DNA from: Candidatus Rokuibacteriota bacterium
Lineage (GTDB): Bacteria > Methylomirabilota > Methylomirabilia > Rokubacteriales > CSP1-6
Length of the DNA: 33,097 nucleotides
NCBI GenBank assembly: GCA_003220595.1
Contig: QHSZ01000090.1
Location: 1 to 33,097, forward strand
Reading direction: 5' to 3'
The notes under the pieces were generated by a model. It was not told the origin of the DNA. It searched no databases and saw only the letters and a list, made by a program, of their open reading frames with translations. Below are positions 24,697-33,097 of this stretch, one piece after another (the first letter of the stretch is position 1; every line of letters begins with the position of its first letter). The translations under genes were made by a program, and so were the position numbers.

Positions 24697-25923
24697 ATGA
24701 AGACGCTCAAGGAGATGCTCGCCGAGGCCCGACAGGTCGTCCCCGAGGAGGGGCCGGCGGACCTCCAGCGTCGTCTGCAGTCGGGCGACAAGGTCGTGGT
24801 CATCGACGTCCGGGACCCGGACGAGTACCGCGACGGCCATCTCGAGGCCGCGACGAACATCAGCCGCGGGTTCCTCGAGTTCAGGGTCGGCACGGCGGTC
24901 ACGGATCCGAGCACGCCGGTCGTCCTCTACTGCCAGACGGGCCTGCGCTCGCTGCTCGCCGCGAAGGCGCTCAAGGAGCTCGGCTACCAGAACGTCATCA
25001 ACCTCCAGGGCGGGTTCCAGAAGTGGACGCAGTCGGGGCTTCCCGTCGTCAAGGACGTCCCGATGAACGCCGATCAGATCCAGCGCTACAGCCGGCACTT
25101 CCTGCTTCCGCAGGTCGGCGACAAGGGACAGCGCAAGCTCCTCCGCGCGAAGGTGCTGCTGATCGGCGCGGGCGGGCTCGGCTCGCCGACGGCGCTCTAC
25201 CTCGCGGCGGCGGGTGTCGGCACGCTCGGGCTGATGGACGGCGACGTCGTGGACATCACCAACCTCCAGCGGCAGGTGCTCCACACGACGGCCGACATCG
25301 GCAAGCCCAAGGTCGAATCGGGCACGCGCACGCTGAAGGCGCTCAACCCGGACGTCCACGTGATCCCGCTCCCGATGCGGATCACCGTCGACAACGTCAT
25401 GGACGTGATCAAGGACTACGACCTCATCGTCGACGGCTCGGACAACTTCGAGACACGCTACCTCGTCAACGACGCGTGCTTCCTCGCGGGCAAGACCAAC
25501 GTCCACGGCTCGATCTTCCAGTTCGAGGGCATGGCGACGGTCTTCGCGCCGAACGAGGGTCCCTGCTACCGCTGCCTCTACCCGACGCCGCCCCCGCCGG
25601 GCCTCGTCCCGTCCTGAAGCGAGGCCGGTGTCCTGGGCGTGCTCCCAGGCGTGATCGGGCTGGTGCAGGCGACCGAGACGGTGAAGCTCCTGCTCGGGAT
25701 CGGCGAGCCCCTGATCGCGCGGCTCCTCACCTACGACGCGCTCGGCATGCGCTTCCGCGAGGTGAAGCTGCGCCGCGACCCCAAGTGCCCGCTCTGCGGC
25801 ACGTCGCCCACGATCACGGATCTGTCGATCCACCGGAACGGCGCAGGGGGCGCGTGCGAGATCGCTCCCGACGGCCGCCGCGAGCCGGCGGTCGCGGCAC
25901 CGGCCGCCAAGGCCGGCGGCTGA
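24697..25923 (+). CDS. moeB: Rhodanese-MoeB/ThiF fusion; candidate selenoprotein with in-frame UGA at residue 307
   Basis: Read through one TGA (25615-25617) the frame gives 408 residues. Residues 1-120 are a rhodanese domain with active-site Cys79 in LYCQTGLRS. From about 125 follows an E1-like ThiF/MoeB adenylyltransferase: [15 protein letters not shown] loop GAGGLGS (157-163), DGSDNFETR with the catalytic Asp, and zinc cysteines Cys290/Cys293 (CYRC) and Cys364/Cys367 (CPLC). The last pair lies after the TGA, so the downstream frame is conserved coding sequence. The TGA falls in [13 protein letters not shown], where relatives have C-x-x-A-G-V (ThiF Cys184, which forms the acyl disulfide with ThiS). 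A hairpin at 25628-25652 fits a bacterial SECIS. The enzyme would activate the C-terminus of a MoaD/ThiS-like protein and load sulfur from the rhodanese domain. Alternatives are a nonsense mutation or a base-call error of TGC/TGT. MoaB lies 2.3 kb away. About 30 C-terminal residues are Ala/Pro-rich. Confidence 0.8.
25628..25652 (+). promoter_or_regulatory. Candidate bacterial SECIS hairpin downstream of the UGA
   Basis: CCTGGG (25632-25637) pairs perfectly with CCCAGG (25644-25649) around the loop CGTGCT (25638-25643). The loop has G as second base followed by U. Below the stem, U25631 can bulge and G25630-C25650 plus two G-U wobbles can extend it. The loop begins 21 bases after the UGA. Stem length, distance and the G in the first two loop bases match the described features of bacterial SECIS elements. 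In GC-rich DNA a chance 6-bp stem is possible. Confidence 0.55.
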
Positions 25924-27740: not shown

Positions 27741-28259
27741 CTAGCGGCCCGCCTCCCGCACGAGGTGGGGGAGCTCCGGGATCAAGAGCTTCTCGAGGGC
27801 GAGCCGGCAGGCGTTGGGCGAGCCCGGGAGCGAGACGACGATCCGACCCGCGTGGATCCCCAGCTGCGCGCGCGAGAGCATGGCCGCCGCGCCCACCTCC
27901 TGGTACGAGAGCATGCGGAAGAGCTCGCCGAAGCCGGGCAGGCGCTTGTCGAGCAGCGCCTCGACCGCGTCGAACGTGGAGTCACGCGACGTGATGCCCG
28001 TGCCGCCGGTCATGATCACGGCCTGCACCCGCGCGTCGCCGCACGCCTCGCGCACGACGCGCTGGACGTCGGCGGGCTCGTCGCGCACGAGCGTCGAGCC
28101 CGCCACGCGGTGGCCGGCGGCGGCGAGGAGCTCGCGGATTGCGCCGCCGCTGGTGTCGGTCTCGGGCGTCTTCGTGTCCGAGATCGTCACGACCCAGCAG
28201 CCGACGGACGTGGGCGCGTGGGCCTTGTGCTCGCGGGGCGTGGCCGCGACGTCGCTCAT
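27741..28259 (-). CDS. moaB: Molybdenum cofactor biosynthesis protein MoaB (MogA-like fold)
   Basis: A 172-residue MoaB/Mog family protein, which adenylylates molybdopterin or binds it during cofactor assembly. Landmarks are VVTISDTKTPETDTSG near the N-terminus, MTGGTGITSRDSTFDAVE (TGGTGI 84-89 with the catalytic Asp after it) and VSLPGSPNACRLALEKLL. The ATG overlaps the glcF stop (28256-28259), so it is the last gene of the glc run. The only other possible cofactor or sulfur-carrier gene here is the rhodanese-MoeB fusion on the opposite strand. Confidence 0.92.
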   Translation of the reverse strand: MSDVAATPREHKAHAPTSVGCWVVTISDTKTPETDTSGGAIRELLAAAGHRVAGSTLVRDEPADVQRVVREACGDARVQAVIMTGGTGITSRDSTFDAVEALLDKRLPGFGELFRMLSYQEVGAAAMLSRAQLGIHAGRIVVSLPGSPNACRLALEKLLIPELPHLVREAGR

Positions 28260-29593
28260 GGGCCTCGCTCAGCGGGCCGGCCATACGCGCGATCCAGCAG
28301 CTCGACGAGGTGCAGGACCTGGACCTCCGCCCCCCGCGCACGAAGCCCCGCCTGGATCTGGAGGATGCAGCCCGGGTTCGCGGTGACGACCGCCTCGGCG
28401 CCGGTCTCGAGGACGTGGCGGATCTTACGCTCGAGCAGCCGGCCGGCCATCTCGGGCTGGGTGAGGTTGTAGATGCCCGCCGAGCCGCAGCACCAGTCCG
28501 ACTCGACGAGATCCACGACGCTGAGCCCCGGGATCTGCGCGAGGAGCTGGCGCGGCTCCTTGCGGATCTTCTGCCCGTGCACCACGTGGCAGGGATCATG
28601 GTAGGTGACCCGCAGCGCGACGGGGCTGAGCGGTGGGACGAGGGGCGCCTTGGCCAGGAATTCCGAGAGGTCCTGGACCGACGCGGCGAAACGCCTCGCG
28701 CGCTCGGCCCAGGCGGGGTCGCCGTCGAGCAGCGCGCCGTACCCCTTCATGTGAGCGCCGCAGCCCGAGGTGTTGACGATCACGGCGTCGGCGCGCGCCG
28801 CCTCGAACGTCTCGATCGTCCGCCGCGACATCTCGAGGGCGCGCGCGTGGTCGCCGCCGTGGGCGTTGAGCGCGCCACAGCAGCCCTGGCCCTCCGGGAC
28901 GATGACGTCGCAGCCGTTCTTCGCCAGGACGCGCGCCGTCGCCCGGTTGTGGGCGCCGAAGACCACCGACTGGACGCAGCCCGTCAGCAGCGCGACGCGC
29001 GCGCGCCGGGCGCCCTCCGCCATGACGTAGGACGGCAGCGGCGCGCGCTCGTGCCGCGGCGGCAGCGAGGGCAGGAGCGCCTCCCACGCGGGAAGCGTCC
29101 CCGGCAGGAGCCGGACGAGGCGGCTCCGGCGGACGAGCGCCTGGAGCCCGCTCACCTGGTAGAGCCTGAGCGCCGTCGCTGCGAGCCTCAGTGCCCACGG
29201 GCGTCCGAGCAGGAGCCCGAAGTTGAGCCAGCGGAAGAGGCGGCGCGCGGGCGAGCCCGGCCGCGCGTGCTCGATCTCGGCCTTCGCCGCCTCGATGAGC
29301 CTGCCGTAGGGCACGCCCGCCGGGCAGACCGTCTCGCAGGCGCGGCAGTCGAGGCACAGGGAGAGGTGCTGCACCGTCGTGTCGGTGAGCGCCGTGCGCC
29401 CCTCGGCGAGCGCCTTGATGAGGAAGATCCGCCCCCGCGGCGAGTCCATCTCCGTGCCGAGCTCAGCGAACGTGGGGCAGGAGGCCAGGCAGAGCCCGCA
29501 GTGGACGCACTGGTTCACGCCCTCGACGGACAGCCCGTGCAGGACCAGCGGGCCCGTGGCCGTTCGGCGCGCGTCCTCGACGATATGCGCCAT
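28256..29593 (-). CDS. glcF: Glycolate oxidase iron-sulfur subunit
   Basis: The GlcF subunit takes electrons from the GlcD/GlcE flavin subunits. The 445-residue protein has two [4Fe-4S] motifs, CVHCGLCLASCP (Cys29, 32, 35, 39) and CLDCRACETVCP (Cys80, 83, 86, 90). Two CCG domains follow, with GQGCCGALNAHGG and SDWCCGSAGIYN. The start is the ATG at 29591-29593, 11 bases after the glcE stop, with no clear Shine-Dalgarno sequence. It is in the order glcD-glcE-glcF-moaB. Confidence 0.93.
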   Translation of the reverse strand: MAHIVEDARRTATGPLVLHGLSVEGVNQCVHCGLCLASCPTFAELGTEMDSPRGRIFLIKALAEGRTALTDTTVQHLSLCLDCRACETVCPAGVPYGRLIEAAKAEIEHARPGSPARRLFRWLNFGLLLGRPWALRLAATALRLYQVSGLQALVRRSRLVRLLPGTLPAWEALLPSLPPRHERAPLPSYVMAEGARRARVALLTGCVQSVVFGAHNRATARVLAKNGCDVIVPEGQGCCGALNAHGGDHARALEMSRRTIETFEAARADAVIVNTSGCGAHMKGYGALLDGDPAWAERARRFAASVQDLSEFLAKAPLVPPLSPVALRVTYHDPCHVVHGQKIRKEPRQLLAQIPGLSVVDLVESDWCCGSAGIYNLTQPEMAGRLLERKIRHVLETGAEAVVTANPGCILQIQAGLRARGAEVQVLHLVELLDRAYGRPAERGP

Positions 29594-29604
29594 GCGCGGC
29601 CCCG

Positions 29605-30948
29605 CTAGATACCGGCCACGAAGCGGCCGGGATTCAGGATGCGCTTCGGATCGAGCTGCGCCTTGATGCGCTGCATGACACGGCCCGCCGCGCCCGGGTC
29701 GTCCCAGACGGGCACCTGCGATTTCACCGCGAGCGGCGCCCGCTCGAGGGTCGCATGACCGCCCCCCGCGCGCGCCATCTCGCGCCACTCGCTGAGCACA
29801 CCGCAGACCGGGCCCGGCTCGCGCGGCTCCCTGTCCGAGACGAGCGCCGCGCTGACGACGCCGACCCCGGCGTGCGCCGCCCACGCCGTCTGGAACCCGC
29901 GGGCGCGCGCGACGCCGGCGCCCTGCTCCATCAGCTCGGCGACCTGCGCCGGCACGACGTCGAAGGACATGACCGCCGTAGCCACCGGAAATGCGTCCCG
30001 CACCGCGGCGGCGAGCCGCGGCCAGGCCGCACTCGACAGCGGTGTTGCGTCGCGGCCGCCATGGGGCGCCGCGAGCCGCGCAAGCTCCGCGCACTGCCAC
30101 TCGACCTGCTCCGGAAGCCCGTCGAACCCCACGACCAGCACCGCTCCGGCCGCGAGGCCAAGCGCGCCCCCGGCCTCTCCGGCGCCCAGGGCCGCCGCCG
30201 CGGTGGGGTCGAGGAGCTCAACGGCGTTCGGGATCAGATCCGATGCGAGCAGCGCGCGGACGGCCGCCGCCGCGTCCTTGAGCCGCGCGAAGCGCAGCGC
30301 GACGAGGCGCTCGGCCTCGGGCACGGGGCGGAGCTTGAGCGTCGCCTCGACGATCACGCCGAGCGTCCCGTACGAGCCGATGAAGAGCTTGGGCAGGTCA
30401 TACCCGGCGACGTTCTTCACGACCTTGCCGCCACCCTTGACGACGGCGGCGTCAGCGGTGACGACCGTGACGCCGATGAGGAGATCGCGCGCCGTCCCGT
30501 AGAGATGGCGCCGCGGTCCCGCGGCGTTCGCCGCGAGCACGCCCCCGAGCGTGGCGCGCTCGGCGTCCGCGGGATCGAGCGAGAGCCACTGCCCGCGGTT
30601 GCCGAGCGCCGCCTGCAGCTCGGCGATGGTCACGCCCGACTCGACGGTGACCGTGAGGTCACCCGGCTCGTGCTCGACGAGCCGCGCGAGGCGGCGAAGC
30701 CCGAGCACCACGCCCGCGCGCGCCGCTGGCATCCCGACGGAGGCCGCGGTGCCACCGCCCCAGGGCACGACGGGCACCTCCGCCTGCCCGCAGAGGGCGA
30801 TCACGGCGGCGACCTCCTCGAGCGCGCCGGGGAACACGGCCGCCTCGGGCGTCCGGCCGTCGACGACGTAGGGCGAGAGCTCGACGCCGGTCAGGACGTT
30901 GGCAGGACCGATCACAGCGCGGAGCCGCTCGAGCAGCGCGTCCTGCAC
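29605..30948 (-). CDS. glcE: Glycolate oxidase FAD-binding subunit GlcE
   Basis: A 447-residue PCMH/VAO-type FAD protein. Typical segments are VPWGGGTAASVG (FAD pyrophosphate loop), LGGVLAANAAGPRRHLYGTARDLLIG and GKVVKNVAGYDLPKLFIGSYGTLG. The C-terminal KAQLDPKRILNPGRFVAG ending is shared with GlcD. The only in-frame start after the glcD stop is the GTG at 30946-30948. Longer frames run into glcD. It is slightly longer than E. coli GlcE (about 350). It would form the GlcDEF complex that oxidises glycolate to glyoxylate. Confidence 0.9.
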   Translation of the reverse strand: MQDALLERLRAVIGPANVLTGVELSPYVVDGRTPEAAVFPGALEEVAAVIALCGQAEVPVVPWGGGTAASVGMPAARAGVVLGLRRLARLVEHEPGDLTVTVESGVTIAELQAALGNRGQWLSLDPADAERATLGGVLAANAAGPRRHLYGTARDLLIGVTVVTADAAVVKGGGKVVKNVAGYDLPKLFIGSYGTLGVIVEATLKLRPVPEAERLVALRFARLKDAAAAVRALLASDLIPNAVELLDPTAAAALGAGEAGGALGLAAGAVLVVGFDGLPEQVEWQCAELARLAAPHGGRDATPLSSAAWPRLAAAVRDAFPVATAVMSFDVVPAQVAELMEQGAGVARARGFQTAWAAHAGVGVVSAALVSDREPREPGPVCGVLSEWREMARAGGGHATLERAPLAVKSQVPVWDDPGAAGRVMQRIKAQLDPKRILNPGRFVAGI

Positions 30949-30967
30949 GCGGCGCGCGACGCCCGCG

Positions 30968-32443
30968 CTAGAAGCGCTGGGCGAGGCCCTTGGCCTCGAT
31001 CGCGTGAGGCGTGTAGGCGACGGGGCCGACCTCGACACACGACTTCTTGGTGGGGAAGACCTTCCCGGGGTTGCAGAGCCCCGTGGGGTTGAAGGCGTTC
31101 TTGAGCCGCTGCATCACCGCCAGGTCGGCGGCAGAGAAGATGAAGGGCATGAAGTCGGCCTTCTCGAGCCCGATGCCGTGCTCGCCCGAGATCGAGCCGC
31201 CGACCTCGGCGCAGACCTTCATGATCTCGGCGCCAGCCTCTACGACGCGCGCCTCCGCACCGGGCACGCGCGGATCGTAGAGGATGTTCGGGTGCAGGTT
31301 GCCGTCGCCTGCATGGAAGACGTTGCCGACGCGCAGGCCGTGGGCGGCGACGATCTCGTTCACGCGGCGGAGCACGTACGGGAGCTTCGTTCGCGGAATG
31401 ACGCCGTCCATCACCATGTACGCCGGTGAGACGCGGCCGAAGGCGCCGAAGGCCGACTTCCGCCCCTTCCAGAGAAGCGCCCGCTCGGCCTCGTCGCGCG
31501 CGGTGCGCACCTCGCGGGCGCCCGCGTCGCGGCACGCTTGCACGATGCGCTCGGTCTGCGCGTCCATGCCGACCCGGAGCCCGTCCAGCTCGACGAGCAG
31601 CGCCGCCGCGGCGTCACGCGGGTACCCGCAGCCGAACGCGTCCTCGACGGCCTGGATCGTGAGCTGGTCCATCATCTCAACGGCGGCCGGCACGAGACCG
31701 CGCGCGATGATCGCCGACACGGCCGCCGAGGCGTGGTCCACCTGGTCGAACACGGCGAGCACGGTCTTCACCGCCTGCGGCTTCTTGAGGATTCTCACGA
31801 CGATCTTCGTCGCGATGCCGAACGTGCCCTCGGAGCCGACGAAGACGCCGGCGAGGTCGTAGCCGGGCGTCGCGCGCGTCCGGCCGCCGAGCCACACGAT
31901 CTCGCCGTCGGGCATCACGACCTCGAGGCCGAGCACGTGGTTCGTCGTGACGCCGTACTTCAGCGTGTGTGGCCCGCCCGAGTTGTTGGCGATGTTGCCG
32001 CCGAGCGTGCACGCCTGCTGGCTCGACGGGTCGGGCGCGTAGTAATAGCCCTTCGGGACGACCGCCCAGGAGAGGTGCAGGTTGACGAGCCCGGGCTCGA
32101 CGACCGCGAGCTGGTTCTCGTAGTCGATCTCGAGGATGCGGTTCATGCGCATCATCGAGATGACGAGCCCCCCCTCGGCCGGGAGGCACCCGCCCGAGAG
32201 GCCCGTCCCCGCGCCGCGCGCGACGAACGGGAGACCCTCGCGCCCGGCCAGCCTGACGACCGCGGCGACGTGCTCGGCGGAGGTCGGGAAGACGACGAAG
32301 TCGGCGAGCGCACGGAAGAGCGTGAGACCGTCGGACTCGTAGACGAGCAGCTCGTCGGGATCGGACAGCACGCCGCCCGGGCCGACGATGGCCTCGAGCT
32401 CCCTGCGGAGCGCCGTCTTGCGCCCGGACGTCAGCGTCGCCAT
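30968..32443 (-). CDS. glcD: Glycolate oxidase catalytic subunit GlcD (FAD-linked oxidase)
   Basis: A 491-residue flavoprotein that oxidises glycolate (possibly lactate or another 2-hydroxyacid) to the 2-oxoacid. FAD-binding residues are in FVARGAGTGLSGGCLP and LGGNIANNSGGPHTLKYG. The catalytic C-terminal domain has GNVFHAGDGNLHPN (metal/substrate histidines) and GGSISGEHGIGLEK. NPTGLCNPGKVFPT is at the end. The start at 32443 follows GGTGAGGG and the previous -10 TATACT; further in-frame codons upstream are shadow of the M24-like gene. Confidence 0.94.
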   Translation of the reverse strand: MATLTSGRKTALRRELEAIVGPGGVLSDPDELLVYESDGLTLFRALADFVVFPTSAEHVAAVVRLAGREGLPFVARGAGTGLSGGCLPAEGGLVISMMRMNRILEIDYENQLAVVEPGLVNLHLSWAVVPKGYYYAPDPSSQQACTLGGNIANNSGGPHTLKYGVTTNHVLGLEVVMPDGEIVWLGGRTRATPGYDLAGVFVGSEGTFGIATKIVVRILKKPQAVKTVLAVFDQVDHASAAVSAIIARGLVPAAVEMMDQLTIQAVEDAFGCGYPRDAAAALLVELDGLRVGMDAQTERIVQACRDAGAREVRTARDEAERALLWKGRKSAFGAFGRVSPAYMVMDGVIPRTKLPYVLRRVNEIVAAHGLRVGNVFHAGDGNLHPNILYDPRVPGAEARVVEAGAEIMKVCAEVGGSISGEHGIGLEKADFMPFIFSAADLAVMQRLKNAFNPTGLCNPGKVFPTKKSCVEVGPVAYTPHAIEAKGLAQRF

Positions 32444-32457
32444 GGCCCTCACCGTGA

Positions 32458-32463
32458 AGTATA
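32458..32463 (-). promoter_or_regulatory. -10 element (GCTATACT) of the glcDEF-moaB run
   Basis: TATACT (plus 32458-32463) lies 14 bases before the glcD ATG, with GGTGAGGG in between, giving a very short leader. The preceding base context (GCTATACT) is the same as at the rfbA promoter. It overlaps the gap after the M24-like gene stop (32466); no clear -35 is visible. Confidence 0.4.
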
Positions 32464-32465
32464 GC

Positions 32466-33097
32466 TCAATACGGATTGGCGATCGGCAGCTCCTCGGCCG
32501 GATAGAGCGTGATGATCGAGGCGCCCGCCGGCGTGAGGACGACCTCCTCCTCGATGCGCGCGGCCGAGACCCCGTCACCGGCCGGGCAATACGTTTCCAC
32601 GGCGAACACCATGCCAGCCTCGAGCTCCATCGGATCGTCGAGCGAGTTCAGCCGGCTGATGATCGGCCGCTCGTGGAGGCCGAGCCCGAGGCCGTGGCAG
32701 AAGTTCAGGCCGAACGCCTCCATCTCGCTCGAGAAGCCGATCTCCTGCGCGCGCGGGAAGCAGCGCGCGATCCGGTCGGTCGCGACGCCCGGCTTGAGCA
32801 TGGCGATCGCCTTGTCCATCCACTCGCGCGCCTTGCGGTAGGCGTCCACCTGGGCGCGGGTGGCGCGCCCGACGTTGAACGTGCGGTAGTAGCACGTGCG
32901 GTAACCCACGAACGACTGGATGATGTCGAAGAAGGCCTGGTCGCCGGGGCGGATCATCCGGTCGGTGAAGTTGTGCGGGTGGGGCGAGCAGCGCTCCCCG
33001 GAGATCGCGTTGATCGCCTCCACGCAGTCCGAGCCCATCTCGTAGAGGCGCTTCGACGCGAGCGCGACGATCTCGTTCTCGCGCACCCCGGGCTTGA
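32466..33097 (-). CDS. M24-family metallopeptidase-like protein (N-terminal part beyond window)
   Basis: The C-terminal 210 residues of a pita-bread fold (M24, Xaa-Pro aminopeptidase/creatinase) protein; the frame is open to the window edge. Recognisable are the His in NFCHGLGLGLHERP, the Glu in VFAVETYCPAG and the Glu of ARIEEEVVLT. The region normally supplying two Asp metal ligands reads FFDIIQSFVGYRTCYYRTF. The first Asp is kept, while the second (the usual GY-x-S-D-x-T-R-T-F position) is Cys. Relatives with such changes include non-peptidase hydrolases, so the reaction cannot be named. It precedes glcD by 22 bases and could belong to the same run. Confidence 0.85.
   Translation of the reverse strand, partial: KPGVRENEIVALASKRLYEMGSDCVEAINAISGERCSPHPHNFTDRMIRPGDQAFFDIIQSFVGYRTCYYRTFNVGRATRAQVDAYRKAREWMDKAIAMLKPGVATDRIARCFPRAQEIGFSSEMEAFGLNFCHGLGLGLHERPIISRLNSLDDPMELEAGMVFAVETYCPAGDGVSAARIEEEVVLTPAGASIITLYPAEELPIANPY

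Follow-up and report, generated by a model that had tools for sequence, protein, structure and literature searches.

A member of the Rokubacteria from soil or groundwater appears to carry selenocysteine (Sec) in place of the active-site cysteine in its only E1 enzyme for loading sulfur onto ubiquitin-like carriers. The best explanation of the gene described here, to which we give a probability of about 0.9, is that it encodes a rhodanese-fused, E1-like selenoprotein in which UGA 307 specifies Sec and which loads sulfur carriers. The gene belongs to the Sec-MoeB kind of selenoprotein that is already known and is not a new family, as judged by matching it to the descriptions of the published sequences.

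The gene, its domains and the position of residue 307

The gene lies on the forward strand of the window, i.e. the whole stretch of 33,097 nucleotides that was analyzed (Table 1). It starts with ATG and comprises 408 codons, and the TGA at codon 307 is the sole stop between 24697 and its terminal stop codon. The sequence-only reading had described this frame as intact apart from one TGA, with the family context persisting on both sides of it. Both points hold, as the Pfam match to the ThiF domain of the read-through protein extends across residue 307 and the CPLC motif located after the UGA is invariant. The two CxxC motifs are presumably zinc-binding, a role that is established for MoeB. In an alignment of 24 Sec relatives, the rhodanese loop conforms to CxxGxRS with C79, G82, R84 and S85 invariant. 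The elements of an E1 adenylyltransferase are likewise all invariant, namely the Gly-rich ATP loop, the Arg, Lys and Asp residues and both CxxC motifs; the invariant columns of the adenylation domain comprise R130, G157-G162, D181, N189-Q193, K205 and D249. The NCBIfam model NF006444 (PRK08762), which covers both domains, is matched with 530 bits against a curated cut-off of 449. The MoeZ model NF005902 is not reached (398 bits versus 647), and the scores for the UbaA and the moeB/thiF equivalog models of NCBIfam are also under cut-off.

Table 1. Features of the predicted selenoprotein gene (positions in the window)
Feature	Position	Strand	Remarks
Predicted rhodanese-MoeB/ThiF fusion selenoprotein gene	24697..25923	+	408 residues if UGA 307 is Sec, plus stop codon
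N-terminal rhodanese domain, residues 20-112	24754..25032	+	Pfam PF00581, E 8e-21
Codon of Cys79, rhodanese persulfide cysteine (CQTGLRS)	24931..24933	+	Invariant column in alignment of 24 sequences
ThiF/MoeB adenylation domain, residues 131-365	25087..25791	+	Pfam PF00899, E 2e-84
First presumed zinc CxxC (CYRC), residues 290-293	25564..25575	+	C290 and C293 invariant
In-frame TGA, predicted Sec codon 307, crossover loop	25615..25617	+	Codon conservation; alignment with known cysteines
Predicted bacterial SECIS apical hairpin, CCUGGG-CGUGCU-CCCAGG	25632..25649 (loop 25638-25643)	+	Conserved synonymous sites; pairing
Second presumed zinc CxxC (CPLC), residues 364-367, 3' of UGA	25786..25797	+	C364 and C367 invariant
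Terminal stop TGA	25921..25923	+	Length past Sec codon differs among relatives

Profile alignments place residue 307 at the cysteine that is conserved in ThiF and MoeB of E. coli and in Uba4, which bears out the earlier proposal that the TGA occupies the position of the sulfur-transfer cysteine. Counting along the chains, its equivalents are Cys184 of ThiF and Cys187 of MoeB, and the chain offset suggests that the Uba4 equivalent is the catalytic Cys202 of PMC7527816. The predicted structure has a mean pLDDT of 83, and among solved folds it comes closest to MoeB and ThiF (1jw9 and 1zfn; TM-score by target 0.93-0.95). The loop formed by residues 304-312 has a pLDDT below 50, in agreement with the crossover loop of Uba4, which is disordered in the apo form (PMC7527816).

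Without recoding, the open reading frame list gives two products of 306 and 94 residues. The UGA could be a true stop, with a functional 306-residue product and a downstream frame that is a relic or a separate gene. A 94-codon open reading frame does begin with GTG shortly past the TGA (25639-25923), and truncation is plausible when selenium is scarce. However, a protein that stops there would be short of the final helix and strands of its ThiF domain and of the second CxxC. Relatives conserve all these parts, and the Cys homologues continue past codon 307. We therefore rejected functional truncation, which we consider highly improbable. Gene callers will nevertheless end the protein at residue 306 and so conceal the second zinc motif.

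Conservation of the codon and selection on the gene

Among 95 genomes of the phylum, 86 contain a strong homologue, and the codon aligned with position 307 was compared in 85 homologues. It is TGA in 58 of them, TGC in 17 and TGT in 10; TAA, TAG or a sense codon for another amino acid was found in none of the 85. The congener has the identical TGA, and recurrence on this scale is far more than chance would give. When compared with 49 relatives, the median Ka/Ks is 0.105 upstream of the UGA and 0.139 downstream, and such a low value past the UGA indicates purifying selection on the downstream sequence. A degenerate protein-level pattern with the TGA fixed was also used for scanning across phyla a collection with one genome per species. 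The same TGA was found in at least 115 named loci, which represent six phyla or more. The Sec loci among the matches listed belong to Rokubacteria/Methylomirabilota, Poribacteria, Tectomicrobia/Entotheonella, SAR324, Verrucomicrobiota, Nitrospinota and Syntrophaceae/Deltaproteobacteria.

These data bear on a possible nonsense mutation or assembly error as the origin of the TGA, in which case the gene would be dead or in truth code for Cys. A single base change converts TGC or TGT to TGA, and the assembly is a draft. Against this, the TGA recurs in the congener, in phylum homologues from separate assemblies and in the loci of other phyla, the frame is otherwise undamaged, and the sequence beyond the UGA is under constraint. 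Conservation across independent assemblies rules out a pseudogene or an assembly error, and we give this explanation next to no weight.

Selenocysteine machinery and predicted SECIS element

The host genome is 98.5% complete, in 380 contigs, and all four genes of the Sec machinery are present. A tRNA-Sec with anticodon TCA scores 68.3 bits, over cut-off (C309:2253-2346). On the same contig, selA (591 bits) adjoins it and selB (373 bits) comes after it, and selD (333 bits) is located elsewhere. The sequence-only reading had named these four genes and the codon in homologues (TGA in 58 and TGC/TGT in 27 of the 85) as what should be looked at, and both support Sec. None of the findings that it had said would refute Sec turned up in the assembled sequences.

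The host genome shows signs of other selenoproteins. The selD gene (L121, around 4010, minus strand of G000:C7) itself has an in-frame TGA within a CAGU motif, followed by a predicted hairpin. A Trypsin/HtrA-like protein with a C-terminal rhodanese domain has the active site CTU, again through an in-frame TGA (L024, G000:C162). This feature is kept in the congener (L025, G001:C198), making the protein a further candidate selenoprotein.

The hairpin predicted just 3' of UGA 307 has the properties of a bacterial SECIS element: its small apical loop starts 20 nt after the UGA, and G is the second loop position. Codons 312-316 are without any synonymous variation in 53 Rokubacterial sequences. Codon 317 is CCA in 52 of the 53, although CCA makes up about 6% of the proline codons (85/1481) in the same genes. 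The hairpin region has the lowest synonymous diversity among the 284 windows compared. Taking all phyla together, the stem is kept with at least 5 of 6 pairs in 120 of 122 distinct Sec sequences; 4 of the 27 Cys homologues fit it in each register. The loop has 6 nt in 103 of the 120 pairing sequences and 7 nt in 17, with the register shifted by one. In this latter class the basal pair is C-G (11), G-C (4), A-U (1) or a mismatch (1). G is found at loop position 2 in every Sec hairpin. No Rfam family matches at the hairpin. Folded as a single sequence, it is only modestly better than shuffled sequences (z -1.2, which is unremarkable), so that the case for a SECIS element rests on the comparative data. 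In some relatives, the minimum-energy fold departs from the hairpin.

Reading of UGA as another amino acid, by a reassigned code or general readthrough, was also considered, since UGA readthrough is known in other bacteria. Against it stand Cys as the sole replacement among homologues, the full Sec machinery, a hairpin that is specific to the UGA copies, and the gene's own terminal stop, which is TGA. A code change was rejected on these grounds and has a negligible chance of being correct. Judging from the machinery, the codon conservation, the frozen hairpin and the selection, which together strongly support the Sec assignment first made for residue 307 by the sequence-only reading, UGA 307 is almost certainly decoded as Sec.

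Association with rhodanese domains and evolution

Every classifiable Sec copy among the matches listed is fused to a rhodanese domain. The domain is N-terminal in 75 named Sec loci and C-terminal in 22, the latter being the SAR324 and Verrucomicrobia types; the architecture of 17 further loci among these matches could not be classified because they are ended by the contig or the retrieved segment. In the phylum set, the rhodanese motif is present in 58 of 58 Sec copies. It is not seen in 26 of the 27 Cys copies, one of these 26 (L089) being a fused copy cut off by the end of its contig. The Sec loci were picked by codon and not by architecture, but the search pattern demanded flanking residues. 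The association of Sec with rhodanese-fused E1s is therefore strong and its exclusivity not proven. The remaining named Sec locus (L177, JACPFL010000262.1) has a TGA both at the rhodanese catalytic Cys (VVYU-ASGLRS) and at the E1 Cys within a single protein. Its first TGA is followed by the hairpin GCGGTC-CGTGCT-GGCCGC, of which the CGUGCU loop is identical to that of the hairpin of the second TGA.

In a tree of 57 ThiF domains, the Sec copies form one clade with respect to the Cys copies of the phylum, with two changes in total, a number limited to this sampling because the Cys copies in the tree come from one phylum only. Several forks are weakly supported. Two fusion copies with Cys (TGC) from the same genome, G053 (L086 on C209 and L089 on C393), are nested in the Sec clade, next to a Sec copy. 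They are best read as a Sec-to-Cys reversal, while contamination is possible, this genome being 9% contaminated.

The E1 complement and the sulfur carriers

The Sec gene is the only one in the host genome with a PF00899 match over cut-off, although a second E1 could be missing from an assembly in 380 contigs. The TGA gene is present in 27 of the 30 family genomes with a completeness of 90% or more, and 24 of these 27 are without another PF00899 hit at E <=1e-10. The host genome has 11 ThiS/MoaD matches (L248-L258), in all of which the carrier domain ends in Gly-Gly or has it close to its end. Two of the 11, on C256 and C121, are copies at contig ends that are nearly identical to each other. 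Among the 11 are a ThiS equivalog and a fusion of MoaD with MoaE, and ThiG is present in the genome too. Several of the 11 matches are closest to the archaeal SAMP1 model, and the count is large for one bacterium. As the only strong ThiF-family E1, the Sec protein probably serves all carriers of this genome. That one E1 can serve several carriers is known from mycobacterial MoeZR, which sulfurates MoaD1, MoaD2 and CysO (PMC3227635). With a sole E1 beside 11 carrier matches, sulfur transfer for molybdenum cofactor and thiamin may depend on selenium.

No carrier operon was found around the gene in the window. A divergent sugar-nucleotide transferase gene is located upstream, and genes for a possible PNPOx-like protein, an HtrA-like protease and a MoCF_biosynth protein are located downstream. 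The latter, with a molybdopterin-binding domain, is encoded on the minus strand (27744-28259). Beside it, genes for a FAD-linked oxidase and Fe-S proteins (28259-32578) resemble a glycolate/lactate oxidase operon.

Proposed mechanism

We propose that tRNA-Sec and SelB decode UGA 307 as Sec at the predicted hairpin. The ThiF domain would adenylate the C-terminal Gly-Gly of ThiS/MoaD-like carriers, and the carrier would then probably be passed on to form a selenoester with Sec307, which sits on the mobile crossover loop. Attack on this selenoester by the rhodanese persulfide of Cys79 would give an acyl-persulfide, and its reduction would free the carrier thiocarboxylate. The latter would feed the synthesis of molybdopterin, thiamin thiazole and probably other products. 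Sec is a better nucleophile and leaving group than Cys. That Sec occurs in rhodanese-fused copies agrees with the view that the crossover-loop chalcogen is most important in enzymes whose fused rhodanese has to attack it.

The selenoester step is modelled on Uba4, in which adenylation of the carrier is followed by a thioester on the crossover-loop cysteine and then by attack of the rhodanese persulfide on this thioester, giving an acyl-persulfide (PMC7527816, PMC7911844). The sequence-only reading had stated that cysteines at this position form an acyl disulfide or thioester. This stands for ThiF and Uba4, but a thioester has never been found for E. coli MoeB, for which an external desulfurase provides the sulfur (PMC7911844). 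The chemistry of the Sec protein is thus drawn by analogy, and we lean towards the selenoester with some reserve. Sec307 could instead act late. Following the model for MOCS3 Cys239 (PMC5372717), the Cys79 persulfide would attack the acyl-adenylate and Sec307 would cleave the resulting acyl-disulfide; or Sec307 could protect against over-oxidation or self-conjugation. Uba4 C202 mutants still adenylate, and this cysteine also guards against self-conjugation (PMC7527816). A Sec residue, with its low pKa and easy repair, would fit both roles. The Uba4 data, in contrast, favour a thioester that precedes the persulfide attack (PMC7527816, PMC7911844), and we regard a late or protective role as a possible but less likely alternative to the selenoester.

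Relation to known systems and significance

MoeB was reported as a selenoprotein family by Zhang and Gladyshev, with 11 sequences in 2005 (PMC1088965) and 19 in 2008 (PMC2398784). Selenoprotein MoeB is also listed in PMC9312934 and PMC13188914 (example MBT7809913.1). The Rokubacterial protein shares with them the ThiF/MoeB family, a predicted Sec and a predicted bacterial SECIS; its own Sec is at the position of a conserved Cys. Marine metagenomes yielded published sequences, and the Sec loci here likewise include SAR324 and Verrucomicrobia copies of marine origin. The published text describes no fusion architecture or carrier context, whereas the Rokubacterial copy is fused to an N-terminal rhodanese and is the sole E1 found in its genome. 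NF006444/PRK08762 has the identical layout of N-terminal rhodanese and MoeB, but its model description is without the Sec that replaces Cys here. Uba4/MOCS3 and mycobacterial MoeZR, which serves both MoaD and CysO (PMC3227635), share the E1 adenylation domain, a crossover-loop Cys aligned with residue 307 and a rhodanese sulfur donor; they differ by a C-terminal rhodanese and by having Cys. E. coli ThiF and MoeB have the same fold and the aligned cysteine but no rhodanese domain.

Neither the link to rhodanese nor the context of a sole E1 nor the relative with two UGA codons turned up in the literature searched, with most subscription papers outside the search. Since 2005, Sec-MoeB has been a mere line in selenoprotein tables. 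What is added here is the rhodanese fusion of every classifiable Sec copy among the matches listed and the context of a sole E1 beside 11 carrier matches. This genome context supplies a testable role, that of the only E1-like ThiS/MoaD activator, coupled to a rhodanese, for most members of a bacterial family. A broader proposal, somewhat short of an even bet, is that in Rokubacteria one rhodanese-fused Sec E1 may be the sole activator of all carriers. Molybdenum cofactor, thiamin and other pathways would then be selenium-dependent and catalysis would proceed through a selenoester; Sec would be favoured specifically in fused E1s, up to both active sites in one lineage. If the role as the only activator is confirmed, two core cofactor pathways become selenium-dependent. 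There would also be a natural Sec/Cys pair for probing, in bacterial sulfur transfer, the acyl intermediate on the E1 crossover-loop residue, which is unsettled for MoeB.
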